A stretch of DNA of 64,000 bases. It comes from Fimbriimonadaceae bacterium. Lineage in GTDB: Bacteria; Armatimonadota; Fimbriimonadia; Fimbriimonadales; Fimbriimonadaceae. Each line of letters starts with the position of its first letter. The stretch's first letter is position 1. The position numbers and the translations under genes were made by a program. The DNA is taken from contig JAHCHO010000002.1 in NCBI GenBank assembly GCA_026129685.1, forward strand, positions 124,001 through 188,000. Direction: 5' to 3'. A model generated the notes under the pieces. That model was not told the origin of the DNA and did not search any database. It saw only the letters and a program-made list of their open reading frames with translations. Positions 38,013 through 47,652 of this stretch are shown in pieces.

Positions 38013-39446
38013 TTACCCACGAAGGAGGGAGAGAACCGCTTGGGGCGCGGAGTTGGCCTGCGCGAGCATGGCCACGCCCGACTGCTGGAGAATTTGGAGT
38101 TTCGTGAAGTTGGTCATCTCCTCGGCCACGTCCACGTCGCGGATCGCGGATTCGGAAGCGGTGAGGTTCTCCTTGGCCACGCCGAGGTTCCGAATCTGCG
38201 ACTCCAGCGTGTTGCGCACGAAGTTGCCGATGTTGCCCCGGGCGGCGGAGATCTCCTCGATCGCCTTGTCGATGACCTTCATCGCGTCGGTGGCGCTGGC
38301 GCCGTTCGTGATGTCGAGGTTGCTCAGGTTGAGGCCGGACACGACCCCGGAACCCAACTGGCTCGAGGCGTAGTTCCCGATGTTGAGACCGGCGGTCTGT
38401 CCCGCGTTGGCGCCGATTTGGAACTGCGTCGTCCCAACGTTCAACTGGCCGATCGTTGTGGCCGCCGCCAACAGGTTGCCGTTCTCGGTCAGACTGATCG
38501 AGTTGCCGTAGGCGTCCTTCAGAGCGAGGCCGGATCCTTGGCTGAAGCTGACCGTCGCCGCCGCGCCGCCCACGGTGACCGACACGTCGGCGACCGCGTT
38601 CACGCCCGCGTCGCTGGTCGCGCCCGCCGCCGAGAGCAGAATCCCGCTCGCGTCGCTCAGGTTGACCTCGGCGGCGGAGCCGTATGCCTTGCTCGTCAGG
38701 GTCACGCCCGCACCGGCGGTCCAGGCGGCGGTGACGCCGGTCACGTCGGACGACTGGTTGATCTTGGCGACGACGTCGCTGATCGTGTCGGACGTGGTGA
38801 CGGAGAAGGTCTTGCCGTTGAGCGAAAAGCTTCCGGCGGCGGTCATCACGGTGGTGGCGAGCGCAAAGGTCCGCGTTCCGGTGAGGGTGGCCTTCTCGGC
38901 GTCGGTCGTCACGTTGACGGTGACCGCGGAGTCGGCGGTGATGGCCTGGCCGTTGAACGTGCCGGAGAAGCTGATGTACGAAACGTTCGCGGCGCTGACC
39001 GAGCTGGCGACGACCCCCGCGCTTCCGTCGAGGAGCCGCTTGCTGCCGAACTGCGTTTGCTGGGCGATTCGGGTGATGGACTCGGCGATGCTGTTGAGTT
39101 GCGACTGGTTCGCCTGAATCTGCGCCTCGCTGAGGGTCGCGGCGTTGGCGCCGGCGACGGCGAGACTCCGGGCGTCCTTCAGCAGGGTGCTGATCTCACC
39201 GAGAGCGCCCTCGGCGGTCTTCGCGAAGTTCACCGCGTCCTGGTTGTTGCGGACCGCCTGGTCGAGGCCGGCGATCTGGGCTCGGAACGTCTCCGAAATG
39301 ATGAGGCCGGCGGGATCGTCGGACCCGCTGTTGATTCTCAAGCCGGTCGAGAGGCGCGTGATGCTCTTCCCCGCTTCCATGCTCGTGTTGCTGACGTTGC
39401 GCAGAGCGCCCATGGCCGAGATGTTGTTGTTAATGCGAAACGACAT
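38013..39446 (-). CDS. fliC: Flagellin
   Basis: A 477-residue flagellin. The D0/D1 N-terminal helices carry RINNNISAMGALRNV, then SITRLSTGLRINSGSDDPAGLIISE and NDAVNFAKTAEGAL-type sequence. The C-terminal half of D1/D0 has RNTLESQIRNLGVAKENLTASESAIRDVDVAEEM and ends in QAVLSLLRG. The central 200 residues form a variable Ala/Thr/Val-rich surface domain. The start has a GGAGG 8 bases upstream. No other flagellar gene is in the window, so the filament gene stands alone with its own promoter (upstream 236 bases) and terminator. Export is by the flagellar type III apparatus. Confidence 0.97.
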   Translation of the reverse strand: MSFRINNNISAMGALRNVSNTSMEAGKSITRLSTGLRINSGSDDPAGLIISETFRAQIAGLDQAVRNNQDAVNFAKTAEGALGEISTLLKDARSLAVAGANAATLSEAQIQANQSQLNSIAESITRIAQQTQFGSKRLLDGSAGVVASSVSAANVSYISFSGTFNGQAITADSAVTVNVTTDAEKATLTGTRTFALATTVMTAAGSFSLNGKTFSVTTSDTISDVVAKINQSSDVTGVTAAWTAGAGVTLTSKAYGSAAEVNLSDASGILLSAAGATSDAGVNAVADVSVTVGGAAATVSFSQGSGLALKDAYGNSISLTENGNLLAAATTIGQLNVGTTQFQIGANAGQTAGLNIGNYASSQLGSGVVSGLNLSNLDITNGASATDAMKVIDKAIEEISAARGNIGNFVRNTLESQIRNLGVAKENLTASESAIRDVDVAEEMTNFTKLQILQQSGVAMLAQANSAPQAVLSLLRG

Positions 39447-39682: not shown

Positions 39683-41200
39683 TCAATATCGCCAGCGGTT
39701 GTTGCTGGTGCCGAAGTCGCGAATCTCGTACCGTCCGCGGACGTCCTCAAGCCGGAACATGTGGTAGCTCGATCGTCGGGCGCCCCACGTGTCCTGGTAG
39801 ACGTGCTCGGCGAAGATGGTCGCGAAACGACCGTCGCGCCGCACGTCCAACACCCGGTATTCCTGAGTCAGGGTGCCCTCGACGAGGTCGGACAACAACC
39901 CGTAGAAATCGTCGGCGCGAATCGAATACTCGTAGCGGCCGTCGAAGTAGTAGTTGATGCGCCCGTCGTTCGGGACCAGTCGGGCGACGAGGTTCATGTC
40001 GCGTCGCTCGAAACCGCGCACGAGGTCGTCGACCGAATAGTCGAGCTCGGAGTAGCGGTCGGCGCCCCAACCCGTGTCGACCCGATTCCAGCGGTACGGG
40101 TAGCCGTAACTGATGACCGGGACCTCGATGTACATCACGCGGCTGACGACCAGGTAAGCCGGCAGGTGCGGGTAGCAGTACCAGGGCCCAATCACGCACC
40201 GGTAGCGGTACGGATCGAAAGCGTAGAAGGGGAACGCGAACCAGTCGTCGCACCAATCGCGGTTGTAGTGCGAATAGCCTCGCCGACCGCCCGTGATGAT
40301 ACGAATTCGATCTTCCCGGCGCACCTGGGAATCCAGCGGGCCGCTGAAGATGTCGATGTTGCCGACGCGGGTGTGGCTCGTCGCGTCTCGTCCGACGTTG
40401 TTGTTCGTTCCGTAGGCGCCGGACCCGTTGCCCCGCCGACCGACGGCCCGGCTCAGGTCGTTCGGCGCCCCGGTCGTCGCGCCGGGTCGACCTCGCTCGT
40501 CGTAGCTTCCCACGCCGCCGCCGCGAGTTCGGTTCGTCTGCGAACCGGGATCTCCGCCCGCCCGAGTCGTATCGCCGCGCCCAAGGCCACCGGTCTGAGG
40601 TCGTCCGCGTTCGTCGTAGCCACCGCCGCCGCCGCGCGTTCGGCCGGCCGTGTCACCCGTGCTTCGGTCGTTGCCCGAACTTCGACCCAAGTCACCGACC
40701 GACCCGCCGGTCCGTCCCGTCGTGTCGTCGCGTCGTGGAGGATCCGTGCGCGGGAAACCGCCCCGCTCCTGGCCGGAACCACCGCCACCCGTGCGCGTCG
40801 TGTCGTCGCGTCGTGGAGGATCCGTGCGCGGGAAACCGCCCCGCTCTTGGCCGGAACCGCCGCCACCCGTGCGCGTCGTGTCGTCGCGTCGTGGAGGATC
40901 CGTGCGCGGGAAACCGCCCCGCTCTTGGCCGGAACCGCCGCCACCCGTGCGCGAGGTGTCGTCGCGTCGAGGAGGATCGTTGCGCGGTGGGGCGCCGCGC
41001 TCCTGACCCGAAGAACCGCCGCCCGTGCGCGAGGTGTCGTCGCGTCGAGGCGGATCGTTGCGGGGCGGGGCGCCGCGCTCCTGGCCGGAGGACCCGCCGG
41101 TGCGATTCGTTCGCCCCTTGCCGAGGTCCTGGCCGATCGCCAGCGAACCCAGCGTCATTGCCGAGACCGCGAGGAAACAGAGAGCGCGCCAGTTGGACAT
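39683..41200 (-). CDS. Secreted repeat protein with C-terminal globular domain
   Basis: A 505-residue protein of unknown function with a signal peptide (ALCFLAVSAMTLGSLAIGQ). Residues 31-159 are five tandem 25/26-residue units built on TGGGGSGQERGGFPRTDPPRRDD, rich in Gly, Arg, Asp and Pro. They are followed by more Gly/Arg-rich linker, then a Tyr/Trp-rich region (RDWCDDWFAFPFYAFDPYRYRC), and a C-terminal domain of about 120 residues (YSVDDLVRGFERRDMNLVARLV, then EYRVLDVRRDGRFATIFAEHV) that looks like an NTF2-like alpha+beta cone. The start is ATG 41200 at the signal peptide, with GGAG 10 bases upstream. A surface or matrix role is inferred only. Confidence 0.65.
   Translation of the reverse strand: MSNWRALCFLAVSAMTLGSLAIGQDLGKGRTNRTGGSSGQERGAPPRNDPPRRDDTSRTGGGSSGQERGAPPRNDPPRRDDTSRTGGGGSGQERGGFPRTDPPRRDDTTRTGGGGSGQERGGFPRTDPPRRDDTTRTGGGGSGQERGGFPRTDPPRRDDTTGRTGGSVGDLGRSSGNDRSTGDTAGRTRGGGGGYDERGRPQTGGLGRGDTTRAGGDPGSQTNRTRGGGVGSYDERGRPGATTGAPNDLSRAVGRRGNGSGAYGTNNNVGRDATSHTRVGNIDIFSGPLDSQVRREDRIRIITGGRRGYSHYNRDWCDDWFAFPFYAFDPYRYRCVIGPWYCYPHLPAYLVVSRVMYIEVPVISYGYPYRWNRVDTGWGADRYSELDYSVDDLVRGFERRDMNLVARLVPNDGRINYYFDGRYEYSIRADDFYGLLSDLVEGTLTQEYRVLDVRRDGRFATIFAEHVYQDTWGARRSSYHMFRLEDVRGRYEIRDFGTSNNRWRY
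40724..41110. repeat. Tandem array of five 75/78-bp coding repeats
   Basis: The array encodes residues 31-159 of the secreted repeat protein. The three units nearest 40.72-40.95 kb differ from one another at only one or two of 78 positions, including silent sites, so they duplicated recently. The two units toward 41.1 kb have diverged (GAPPRND instead of GGFPRTD). The reading frame is kept throughout. Confidence 0.95.
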
Positions 41201-41228: not shown

Positions 41229-41234
41229 ATTGTA
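41229..41234 (-). promoter_or_regulatory. Possible -10 element of the repeat-protein gene
   Basis: The minus strand reads TACAAT here, predicting a start about 22 bases before the ATG at 41200, with GGAG in the short leader. No clear -35 hexamer is found. Confidence 0.35.
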
Positions 41235-41336: not shown

Positions 41337-44033
41337 ATGTTGGACGAATACCGGGCGAAACGCGACTTCGCGAAGACCACGGAACCCTCGCCCGGAGCGG
41401 GGGACCCCTCCGGCGGCCTGCCCCGGTTCGTCGTCCAGAAGCACCACTCCCGCCACCTGCACTACGACCTGAGGCTGGAGTGGGACGGCGTCCTCAAGTC
41501 CTGGGCGGTTCCAAAGGGACCGAGCCTGAAGCGCGGAGACAAGCGCTTCGCCGCCCTTGTCGAAGACCATCCCCTCGCCTACGCCGACTTCGAGGGGGTC
41601 ATCCCGAAGGAGGAGTACGGCGGCGGCGAGGTGATCGTCTGGGACCGAGGAACCTACTTCCCGGACGAGAACCCATCCGTGGACCCCACCAACCGTGCGG
41701 CCGTCGACGAGGAAATGCGTCGAGGGTTTGCGGCAGGCAAGTTGTCCTTCACCCTTCTTGGCGAGAAGCTGCGGGGTTCGTTCGCCTTGGTCCGCATGAA
41801 GGAGGGAAAGGACTGGCTTCTCCTCAAGCACCAGGACGAATACGTGGACAATGAACGGGACGTCCTCGAGCGGGACCGCTCCGTCCTCACCGGTCGGACC
41901 ATCGCCGACCTACAAGGAGTCCCGGCCGCACCGTCTCCGACCACGACCGACCGCCGCCCCATCCCGGGCGCGATCCACGCTCCGTACCCGACCGTCTTTG
42001 CGCCCATGATGGCCACGCTCGGGGACCGGCCCTTTGTCGGCAAAGACTGGGTGTTCGAGCCAAAGATGGACGGGTTTCGCGCACTCGTGTTCCTGCGCGA
42101 CGGCGACGCCCGCCTCTTCAGCCGCAACGGCAACGAGATGACGTCTCAGTTTCCCGCGTTGCGATTCCGACTCGCGAACCTGGGGCTGAACAGCGCGGTG
42201 CTGGACGGCGAGATCGTCGCGCCGGACGAGCAGGGGCTCCCGTCCTTCCAGCGACTCCTGAAGCGCTTCCAACTGAAGGACGCCCTCAGCGTGCAGAACG
42301 CCGAGCGAACCATCCCGATCCATTTCTACGGCTTAGATCTGCTCTACTTGGACGGGTTCGACCTACGTAACGCCCCCTGGACCGAGCGCCGTGCCGCGCT
42401 GGAGCGCTCTATGGCCCCGCGGACGAGCGACGCGATCCACCTGATCCCCGTGTTCGAAGAGGACGGACCGGTGGCGATGGAGGGTTGCGTCGGCATGGGC
42501 TTCGAAGGCATCGTCGCCAAGCGCAAGGCCGGTCGGTACCAACCCGGCAAGCGGTCTTCGGACTGGATCAAGTTCAAGCGGGAGGCGAGCGACGAGTTCG
42601 TCGTCGTCGGTTACACCCTCGGCCAGGGTTGGCGGTCGAAGTCGTTCGGATCCCTCGTGCTGGCCAAGACCGAGGACGACGGAAGCCTCACCTACGTCGG
42701 CAACGTAGGCTCCGGATTCGACGACGCAACCCTCGAGTCAATACAGCGCGAGTTGGAGCCACTCGCCGCGGCGGAGAGCCCCTTCGCCAAGCTTCCCGCG
42801 ATGAAAGAACCGCACGTGACCTGGGTCCGGCCCGAGGTCCACGCGGAGGTGAAGTTCGACTCGTACACGGAGGCCGGAAACCTGCGCGCGCCGGTGTTCC
42901 TCCGACTGAGGCCCGACAAGGAACGGGGTCCTGGAGTGCCGGAAGTTCGGGCCGACGCTCCGGTGGGAACCGAGTCCGAGGAGGACATCGAGGCCCTGGT
43001 CCAGACCCTACGCGAGGGTCGGCCCAATACGACGGTCAAGATCGACGGCTACCCGGTGGCGCTTACCAACCTTGACAAGCCGCTCTGGACGGCGGAAGCC
43101 GAATGGCGAGCGTTCACGAAGCGCGAATACGTCGTCTACTGCCTTCGGAACCGGGTGGCGATGCTGCGACACTTACGCGACCGCCCGCTGACCCTCACCC
43201 GCTTCCCCAACGGGCACCGCGCCTCGCATTTCTACCAGAAGCACTGGGAGGGGACCCTGCCGCCCTATGTCACGCCCGTTCGCATCTTCTCCGGTCTTCG
43301 CGGCGAGTCCGGCGACTACATGGTGTGCAACAACCTGGCCACCCTGGTCTGGTTGGCGCAGATCGCGGACCTGGAGATTCACTCTTGGTACTCGCGCATC
43401 GCGCGATCCGGTGACGGCTTTGCGGACGATTACGGTTCCTCCAAGGAGGCCCTCGCCGCCTCCGCGCTGAACTACCCGGACTTCATGGTGTTCGACCTCG
43501 ACCCCTACATCTACAAGGGCACGGAGAAGGCGGGGGACGAGCCGGAACTCAACCGCAAGGCGTTCCAGAAGGGGTGCGAGGTCGCCCTCTGGTTGCGTGA
43601 GATTCTCGAGTCGCTGGGACTCCACCCCTTCATCAAGACCACCGGCAAAACGGGGTTGCACGCGTTCGTCCCGATCGTGCGCAACCTCTCCTTCGATCAG
43701 ACCCGTTCCGCCTCCGAGGTCATCGGACAACATCTTTTGCGGCAGCACCCCGAAGACGTCACCCTCGAATGGGCGGTTGAGAAGCGGGCCGGCAAGATCT
43801 TCTTCGACTACAACCAGAACGTGCGAGGCAAGACCTTGGCGTCCATCTACTCGCCACGGGCGACCGGAGGCGCGAAGGTTTCGGTCCCGGTCCGCTGGGA
43901 CGAACTGATGGACGTGTTCCCTTCGGACTTCGACATATCGAACGTACCGGATCGGGTCTCCCGGGTCGGCGACGTGTGGGAGGACATCCTGGATCACCGG
44001 GTGGACCTCAAAGCCCTGCTGAATCTGGGCTGA
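41337..44033 (+). CDS. ligD: Multifunctional ATP-dependent DNA ligase LigD (phosphoesterase-ligase-polymerase)
   Basis: An 898-residue three-domain non-homologous end-joining enzyme. The 3'-phosphoesterase domain (about 25-165) keeps the metal ligands His36/37, His40, His42, Asp44, Arg46, His78 and Tyr82. The ligase domain (about 210-520) has the adenylated Lys243 in EPKMDGFRAL, the FEGIVAK motif and the WIKFK motif. The primase-like polymerase domain (about 590-890) has the metal aspartates in FDLDP near residue 718 and TGKTGLHAFVPI. The domain order is that of Pseudomonas LigD, not mycobacterial. Its partner Ku is not in the window. The stop abuts the convergent GH36 stop with no gap. Confidence 0.96.
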   Translation: MLDEYRAKRDFAKTTEPSPGAGDPSGGLPRFVVQKHHSRHLHYDLRLEWDGVLKSWAVPKGPSLKRGDKRFAALVEDHPLAYADFEGVIPKEEYGGGEVIVWDRGTYFPDENPSVDPTNRAAVDEEMRRGFAAGKLSFTLLGEKLRGSFALVRMKEGKDWLLLKHQDEYVDNERDVLERDRSVLTGRTIADLQGVPAAPSPTTTDRRPIPGAIHAPYPTVFAPMMATLGDRPFVGKDWVFEPKMDGFRALVFLRDGDARLFSRNGNEMTSQFPALRFRLANLGLNSAVLDGEIVAPDEQGLPSFQRLLKRFQLKDALSVQNAERTIPIHFYGLDLLYLDGFDLRNAPWTERRAALERSMAPRTSDAIHLIPVFEEDGPVAMEGCVGMGFEGIVAKRKAGRYQPGKRSSDWIKFKREASDEFVVVGYTLGQGWRSKSFGSLVLAKTEDDGSLTYVGNVGSGFDDATLESIQRELEPLAAAESPFAKLPAMKEPHVTWVRPEVHAEVKFDSYTEAGNLRAPVFLRLRPDKERGPGVPEVRADAPVGTESEEDIEALVQTLREGRPNTTVKIDGYPVALTNLDKPLWTAEAEWRAFTKREYVVYCLRNRVAMLRHLRDRPLTLTRFPNGHRASHFYQKHWEGTLPPYVTPVRIFSGLRGESGDYMVCNNLATLVWLAQIADLEIHSWYSRIARSGDGFADDYGSSKEALAASALNYPDFMVFDLDPYIYKGTEKAGDEPELNRKAFQKGCEVALWLREILESLGLHPFIKTTGKTGLHAFVPIVRNLSFDQTRSASEVIGQHLLRQHPEDVTLEWAVEKRAGKIFFDYNQNVRGKTLASIYSPRATGGAKVSVPVRWDELMDVFPSDFDISNVPDRVSRVGDVWEDILDHRVDLKALLNLG

Positions 44034-46072: not shown

Positions 46073-46729
46073 CTAGAAGTACCCGCCGCTCGTCTCGGCG
46101 GAGGCGTCCATGTAGGTCGCGATGAACTCCGCGAGCTGCTCCTTGGTGGCGCCCCGATAGAGCGGCATGAAGCGGTAGAACACGCCGTCGATGTTCTCCG
46201 AGTTCTTCAACTGCTCGAGAAAAATATCCCACTTTAGGCGGGTCGTGCCGTTGGTGAACCCGCCCGGCCCCCGGTAGAAGAAGACCGCGATGTTGTCGCC
46301 GTACTGGGCGTGCTGCATGTAAGCGAAGCTTGCGGGAATGACGCCGCGCCCGGTCGGAATCTGGACCCGCTCTTCGCGAACGATGTTCCAGCCTTGGGCG
46401 GTGAAACACACGCGCGGGTCGTGGAAGCTCTCTTTCTCGCGGCTGGCGATGAGGACGACGTCGAACGTCTTGTCCGCCGACTCGTACTTGCGCGCGACGA
46501 TCCCGTAGGGGCGCAACGTGTCGTAGGTCAGCTTGTCCATCTTGTACGAGCACTCCGGGTTCTCCGGGCTCGCCGCGAACCGGAACCCCGGCACCTGCTT
46601 GGGCGCGCGCTGCTCCATCCAAGTTTCGTTCTTGTCCTTGAAGTTGGGCTTGGGGGATAGGGCGAAGATCGCCCCTGCGGCCAGAAGCACGCCCGCGAAC
46701 ACCATGGTCCGTTTCGTCAGTCTTTCCAT
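46073..46729 (-). CDS. EpsI-domain exosortase partner protein (DUF3485)
   Basis: A 218-residue protein with a single N-terminal membrane span (MVFAGVLLAAGAIFAL) and an extracytoplasmic EpsI/DUF3485 domain. HDPRVCFTAQGWNIV is the conserved motif of the family, and DNIAVFFYRGPGGFTNG follows. EpsI proteins occur as separate partners of, or fused to, exosortases, and in some organisms are needed for exopolysaccharide export. The gene overlaps the exosortase gene by 13 bases, so they are translated together. The likely site is the outer face of the cytoplasmic membrane. Confidence 0.88.
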   Translation of the reverse strand: MERLTKRTMVFAGVLLAAGAIFALSPKPNFKDKNETWMEQRAPKQVPGFRFAASPENPECSYKMDKLTYDTLRPYGIVARKYESADKTFDVVLIASREKESFHDPRVCFTAQGWNIVREERVQIPTGRGVIPASFAYMQHAQYGDNIAVFFYRGPGGFTNGTTRLKWDIFLEQLKNSENIDGVFYRFMPLYRGATKEQLAEFIATYMDASAETSGGYF

Positions 46730-47652
46730 CCGAGCATCCTCGCGAATTTGAACAGCAGGAAGAAGCAGAGCAGCAGGGTGATGTACCCGCTGTAGTCGTG
46801 GAACGCCATGCCGGCGTCCGTGCCGAACTCGTTGCCCACCACGCCGATGAGCGCGATGCGCAGGCCGTTGATGAACAGCGCCAACGGGATGACCATTCCG
46901 GCCATCAGCAGATTGCCCCACCAGCGCAACCGGGCGATCATCATGAAGAAAGCCGTGAACGCCGTCAACGCCAACACCAGCTTCAGCCCGGAGCAGGGCA
47001 CCGCGACGTTCAGGGTGAATCGGTTGAGTTCGATCGTGGTGACGTCCACCCGGAAGGGGGACAGCCCGAAACTCTTGAGCATCGCGTAGGCGACGTCGGT
47101 GGACCAGATCTGGAGCCGGTTCAGATAGACGTCGATCGCCATCGTCCAGATCGGCAAGGCGAACGCCAAGTACAGGATCGGCAGGCTCAGCGCGAACATC
47201 CACCGCGCTCCCGCGACGAACCAGACCCCGCACAGCAAGGACAAGATGAGGCCGAACGACATCAGAGCCTCGATGTCCTGAATGTACGCCGCCCTCAAGG
47301 GCCACAGCATCAGCAGCACGGGCAGGATCGCCGGCCAGAACGGACGGATCGGTCGAGACTGGAGCCTCGGCCACCAGCGGTACACCACGTAACCCGCGAT
47401 CACCGGCACCAAGAACCCGTGGGAGTAGTAGCCGTCCTCGCTCATCCAGAGCTTCGGCAGACCAGACACCAGCGGCCAGAAGGCGGCCAGCAGACCCAGA
47501 ACGGACAAGGCGCCGGGCACAAAGCCGGGCGACCTCAGAACCTTCTGCAGGTCAAAGACGGGCATCGCGAACGCCGCCTCGGGAACGGGCGTCTCGAGCG
47601 GCGGCTCCGTGACGGGTGCGGCGGTGACTTCCATCCCTCGTTTTGACTTCAC
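46717..47652 (-). CDS. xrt: Exosortase (PEP-CTERM processing enzyme)
   Basis: A 311-residue integral membrane protein with eight or so spans. The catalytic triad is present: Cys220 in VAVPCSGLK, Arg265 in INGLRIALIG and His285 in AFHDYSGY. It cleaves PEP-CTERM tails at the membrane; two candidate clients are encoded at 1184 and 31611. The start is the GTG at 47652, which has AGAGGA 7 bases upstream; the ATG at 47634 is an alternative with poor ribosome-site spacing. It lies downstream of a glycosyltransferase gene and overlaps the EpsI gene, forming an exosortase/polysaccharide operon. Confidence 0.93.
   Translation of the reverse strand: MKSKRGMEVTAAPVTEPPLETPVPEAAFAMPVFDLQKVLRSPGFVPGALSVLGLLAAFWPLVSGLPKLWMSEDGYYSHGFLVPVIAGYVVYRWWPRLQSRPIRPFWPAILPVLLMLWPLRAAYIQDIEALMSFGLILSLLCGVWFVAGARWMFALSLPILYLAFALPIWTMAIDVYLNRLQIWSTDVAYAMLKSFGLSPFRVDVTTIELNRFTLNVAVPCSGLKLVLALTAFTAFFMMIARLRWWGNLLMAGMVIPLALFINGLRIALIGVVGNEFGTDAGMAFHDYSGYITLLLCFFLLFKFARMLGWKD

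Follow-up and report, generated by a model that had tools for sequence, protein, structure and literature searches.

The locus and the encoded protein

The stretch of DNA analysed here (the window; 64,000 nucleotides of a Fimbriimonadaceae contig) carries on its minus strand a gene for a probably exported protein, with a flagellin gene downstream of it (Table 1). The start ATG at 41200 is matched by a methionine (MSHW) in the frames of both congeners, and in one of them (G002) this methionine is also the start of the listed open reading frame. The N-terminus resembles a signal peptide, as a sequence-only reading of the locus had proposed; by inspection, cysteine is absent from the likely cleavage site and export is probable. 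No surface anchor was recognised on inspection of the protein, which could be periplasmic or extracellular. A linker of roughly 270 residues connects the signal-like start to the conserved C-terminal part. The protein terminates a few residues past a predicted NTF2-like domain, with the repeat array preceding the folded part. The repeated segment is charged, as the sequence-only reading had it, and low in hydrophobicity, and the composition of the linker suggests that it is disordered and flexible.

Table 1. Features of the repeat-protein gene and of its surroundings in the window.
Feature	Position	Strand	Size	Remarks
Flagellin gene	38013–39446	−		downstream of the repeat-protein gene; Pfam
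Gene for probably exported protein	39683–41200	−	505 aa	from ATG at 41200
Same gene, alternative start	ATG at 41230	−	515 aa	
NTF2-like C-terminal domain (predicted)	39692–40054	−		AlphaFold2 model and VIA-align
Aromatic-rich conserved module	40106–40315	−		GYxHYxxxWxDDxFxYPxYxF...SPWYxYPxLPGY; alignments
Remaining linker beyond the array	40316–40717	−		two copies of a YDERGRP stretch; sequence
YGTNNN	40397–40414	−		linker, ahead of the folded part
Whole array	40718–41104	−	387 bp	five in-frame units
Unit 5	40718–40795	−	78 bp	excludes the codon after the unit
Unit 4	40796–40873	−	78 bp	identical to unit 3
Unit 3	40874–40951	−	78 bp	
Unit 2	40952–41029	−	78 bp	residues of unit 1 plus one Gly
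Unit 1	41030–41104	−	75 bp	25 residues
DLGKG	41114–41128	−		near the linker start
Signal-peptide-like stretch	41132–41200	−		MSNWRALCFLAVSAMTLGSLAIG; inspection; best 12-residue hydropathy 2.2
LigD-type gene	41337–44033	+		divergent neighbour; domain order phosphoesterase, ligase, primase-polymerase
Exosortase (EpsH) gene	46717–47652	−		

A five-unit in-frame array

Tandem Repeats Finder (TRF) reports a repeat at 40718–41089 with a period of 78 bp, 4.8 copies, 91% matches and a score of 513, the top score of the 43 rows that TRF gives for 464 kb (the window together with 400 kb from the contig it lies on, in a genome of 3.94 Mb). By comparison, 200 codon shuffles of the window linker peak at a score of 64, and nine of them reach 50. 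Unit borders were set by cutting the minus-strand gene at every 'RTGG', which yields five in-frame units; this confirms the coding tandem repeat described from sequence alone, with the span, given there as 40724–41110, corrected by six bases. Since the copies are in frame, head to tail and above chance, the array qualifies as a coding minisatellite.

Comparison of the units reveals an uneven pattern of divergence. Units 1 and 2 are separated by eight silent bases and one Gly codon, with no replacement change, a silent-only pattern with p of about 5e-5 if changes are spread evenly over sites. Unit 5 departs from units 3 and 4 at two silent bases, and units 2 and 3 differ at 18 of 78 bases and at five residues. 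These differences therefore define two subtypes, units 1–2 and units 3–5, of which the second looks recently expanded.

The genus is represented by two further genomes. Their folded parts share 66% and 65% identity with that of the window protein, and the 78-bp array is absent at both loci: TRF returns no row at one, and at the other it reports 2.1 copies of a 105-bp period. This absence, together with the three near-identical units, upholds at the level of species the earlier claim of a recent expansion. The motif GQ[ET]RG occurs five times in the window protein, twice in each congener and nowhere in the other 67 of the 70 proteins analysed; the likeliest reading of these sequences is that a genus-wide piece was expanded on the window lineage.

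Arrays of other kinds were seen on G000:C11. In a CRISPR-like array outside the window (L111:1423–2957; about 61.4–63.0 kb), a 35-bp repeat recurs at least 22 times over the stretch examined, at a spacing of 67–89 bp, and one repeat-spacer unit is duplicated exactly. An array at L120:7748–7931 has a period of 43 bp, which is not a multiple of 3, with 4.2 copies, 95% matches and a TRF score of 322.

A widespread family with a predicted NTF2-like domain

Matches to the C-terminal part occur in 77 of 85 Fimbriimonadaceae genomes and, when it is searched as a profile, in 188 of 291 genomes across Armatimonadota, usually once per genome. A scan of named genomes with a single pattern, which covers sequences outside the phylum, returned 12 loci. 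Eleven carry Armatimonadota names (Fimbriimonadaceae, Fimbriimonadales, Chthonomonadaceae, Chthonomonas or Armatimonadetes); the remaining one (L078, JADZEW010000008.1) is labelled Methanoregulaceae archaeon, a label that looks wrong, as the contig equals in length one in G059, a genome of the window's own family. We analysed 70 loci, one per genome, out of the 77 matching family genomes, ignoring the extra matches that a few genomes have and leaving out G016, G025, G028, G031, G040, G042 and G045. Starts of homologues were picked by a hydropathy rule, and one protein with its 5' end cut (L020) was dropped, giving counts over 69 proteins.

An AlphaFold2 model (13 sequences) has a mean pLDDT of 76.5, with the first 39 residues below 50 and block means of 84–95 over model residues 101–220. 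In the aromatic-rich module, the first ~23 residues fall below 50 and the remainder has block means of 63–85. Model residues 104–224 superpose on 4ouq with a VIA-align Z of 11.3 (2.2 Å over 105 residues), and Foldseek also matches the model to NTF2-like structures. The closest solved structures are the DUF4783 proteins 4ouq, 4orl and 4q53, at 6–12% identity. The C-terminal ~120 residues are thus predicted to adopt the alpha+beta fold of the NTF2-like/SnoaL superfamily; a point of difference is the aromatic-rich module before the domain.

The window protein matches no Pfam profile at E values up to 1; a search of PDB sequences gave no match at E values up to 10. Among 24 family members scanned, SnoaL_3 matched four (best E 0.00016), DrmE_C two (best E 5.8e-5), and MipA, Coagulin and Tim44 one each; the best NCBIfam match among the 24 had an E value of 0.068. 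Our preferred explanation, which we consider probable, is that of a coding minisatellite located within the linker of a protein, probably exported, that occurs widely across Armatimonadota.

Repeats, length and selection in the linkers of homologues

Repeats are a feature of these linkers well beyond the window. TRF arrays score at least 50 in 39 of 69 linkers, against one to seven in ten rounds of codon shuffling, and at least 100 in 28 of 69, against none; the folded parts give three of 69 and none at the same thresholds. The arrays of different relatives differ, and all are in frame: the best periods of all 39 are multiples of 3, from 12 to 180 bp. Linkers are 72–333 residues long (median 174; 70 proteins), their composition varies among relatives, and the median hydrophobic fraction is 0.12.

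The clearest change between close relatives is seen in G064 and G065, each a single-contig genome, with domains 98.6% identical and linkers of 173 and 222 residues that differ through repeated blocks. The sequence-only reading had supposed that copy number varies between strains, and this species pair supports that supposition by analogy only. A stronger form, in which the locus is an adaptive contingency locus whose repeat number often shifts within populations and thereby alters surface display, could draw on this 49-residue difference and on the window array itself, where units 3 and 4 are the same, unit 5 is nearly so and 94 bp match exactly at a shift of 78. We think it unlikely: the comparisons are at species level, no surface anchor was recognised by inspection, and among six pairs with domain identity of at least 93% the linkers of the other five lie only 0–4 residues apart. 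Since no array reaches a score of 50 in 30 of 69 linkers, and since linker lengths are equal in L037/L038, L066/L070 and L069/L072, repeat turnover is not constant.

The same 94-bp match, the longest exact one at that shift, means that assembly from short words could miscount units 3–5, and the real copy number might then be other than five. An artefact of this sort has a low probability in our judgement, because the assembly, in 18 contigs, has a completeness of 99.18% and the single-contig relatives G064, G065 and G009 also have arrays; moreover, units 1, 2 and 5 can each be told apart, which establishes an array of several units even if their exact number were different.

The spread of linker lengths and the unlike compositions of relatives are also what would be expected of neutral filler, in which repeats come and go without selection. 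We compared substitution in nine pairs with domain identity of at least 88%, using the Nei–Gojobori method, which ignores codon and transition bias, on alignable codons alone. Linker dN/dS is 0.006–0.122 and domain dN/dS 0–0.111, with the linker value above that of the domain in six of the nine pairs; dS exceeds 0.8 in three pairs, and alignment within repeats is uncertain, as in L016/L017, where dS is 0.145 in the linker and 0.058 in the domain. Among close species, linker residues thus appear nearly as constrained as those of the domain. Short motifs by both linker ends also far exceed shuffles: LG[KR] near the linker start in 31 of 69 homologues (shuffle mean 1.4), and Y[GD]x(1-2)N[NS] ahead of the folded part (shuffle mean 0.7) and SGx[VA]xY near the linker end (shuffle 0.15) in 29 of 69 each. 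The window protein has LG[KR] and YGTNNN and lacks the SGx[VA]xY form. Given these constraints on residues and motifs, we regard neutral filler as improbable.

Net charge was also considered as a signal. It is positive in all 69 linkers; however, 40 of 42 low-hydrophobicity windows in a same-contig background (a crude set of open reading frames, including spurious ones) are positive as well, and positive charge is therefore weak evidence of selection. As this background did not discriminate, charge was dropped as a signal.

Gene neighbourhood

Neighbourhoods were examined for 21 of the 77 matching genomes. A conserved operon was rejected, the commonest neighbour cluster occurring in just 11 of the 21. 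The commonest neighbour, which from its N-terminal sequence we take to resemble isocitrate/isopropylmalate dehydrogenase, is divergent and lies 1.4–2.1 kb upstream, centre to centre, in nine of the 21. A promoter scan returned nothing, and a terminator scan a single candidate on the opposite strand, at chance level. The window also holds a divergent LigD-type gene and an exosortase (EpsH) gene (Table 1); inspection of the end of the repeat protein revealed no recognisable sorting signal.

Flagellin lies downstream on the same strand at 12 of the 70 loci, that of the window among them, with 151–240 bp between the domain match and the flagellin match in 11 of these and 654 bp in one. That the protein is flagellum-associated is nonetheless very improbable, because presence of the gene and of flagellin disagree: of the 12 family genomes that Flagellin_N does not match, 11 have a match to the repeat-protein gene (weak in G025), and of the eight with no match to that gene, seven have flagellin. 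The protein is thus not a general component of the flagellum.

Discussion

NTF2-like domains serve in small-ligand binding or in protein contacts, and from these general roles we take it as most likely that the linker spaces or tethers such a domain. On our preferred reading, that of a coding minisatellite, units 3–5 would be products of a recent duplication in which direct repeats recombined unequally or the template slipped between them. Selection would purge most residue changes and keep the linker polar, with its length loosely constrained. The linker would tether or space the NTF2-like domain, the presumed working part, which may bind a ligand or contact a protein, either within the envelope or extracellularly. 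The number of repeats may tune its reach.

We advance a broader proposal more tentatively, judging it somewhat less probable than not: that across this phylum-wide, probably exported protein family the linker changes mainly by in-frame block duplication, with purifying selection on residues in the short term and a linker rebuilt between genera by the birth and turnover of repeats, while positive charge and the two end motifs are kept.

Near-identical tandem units, the number of which could determine how far a functional domain extends, are also a property of the Periscope Proteins SasG, Rib and Sgo_0707 as PMC8201768 describes them. The likeness has limits. The units here are 26 residues long, of low complexity and not recognised as folded domains, unlike those in PMC8201768; and whereas SasG, Aap and Rib are described there with an N-terminal ligand domain and C-terminal wall attachment, the folded part here is C-terminal and no wall anchor was recognised. 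In Legionella pneumophila, seven of 26 intragenic tandem repeats are polymorphic between strains, according to PMC2639597; tandem repeats inside bacterial coding regions are common to both cases, and the phylum and the proteins differ. Disordered regions of yeast proteins offer a third comparison, their orthologues being poorly alignable with molecular features preserved, as set out in PMC6634968. In our case charge, with a weak control, and two end motifs were examined, and a further element is that length changes through duplicated blocks.

The process itself is already known (PMC2639597, PMC8201768), and our observations appear to reflect ordinary evolution of repeats, in a protein family that is itself undescribed. 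Among the open PMC papers that literature searches returned, judged by their titles and including those on Fimbriimonadaceae together with Armatimonadota and one on domain promiscuity, none concerns this repeat-protein family. Should the broader proposal hold, the linker would be a bacterial disordered region in which bulk properties are conserved and sequence change is saltatory. The practical weight of these observations is modest. A single odd array nevertheless becomes a basis for comparison across a little-studied phylum: the conserved folded end supplies the yardstick, the linker repeats can be set side by side, and it becomes possible to study how disordered linkers evolve in bacteria and which of their properties are under selection.
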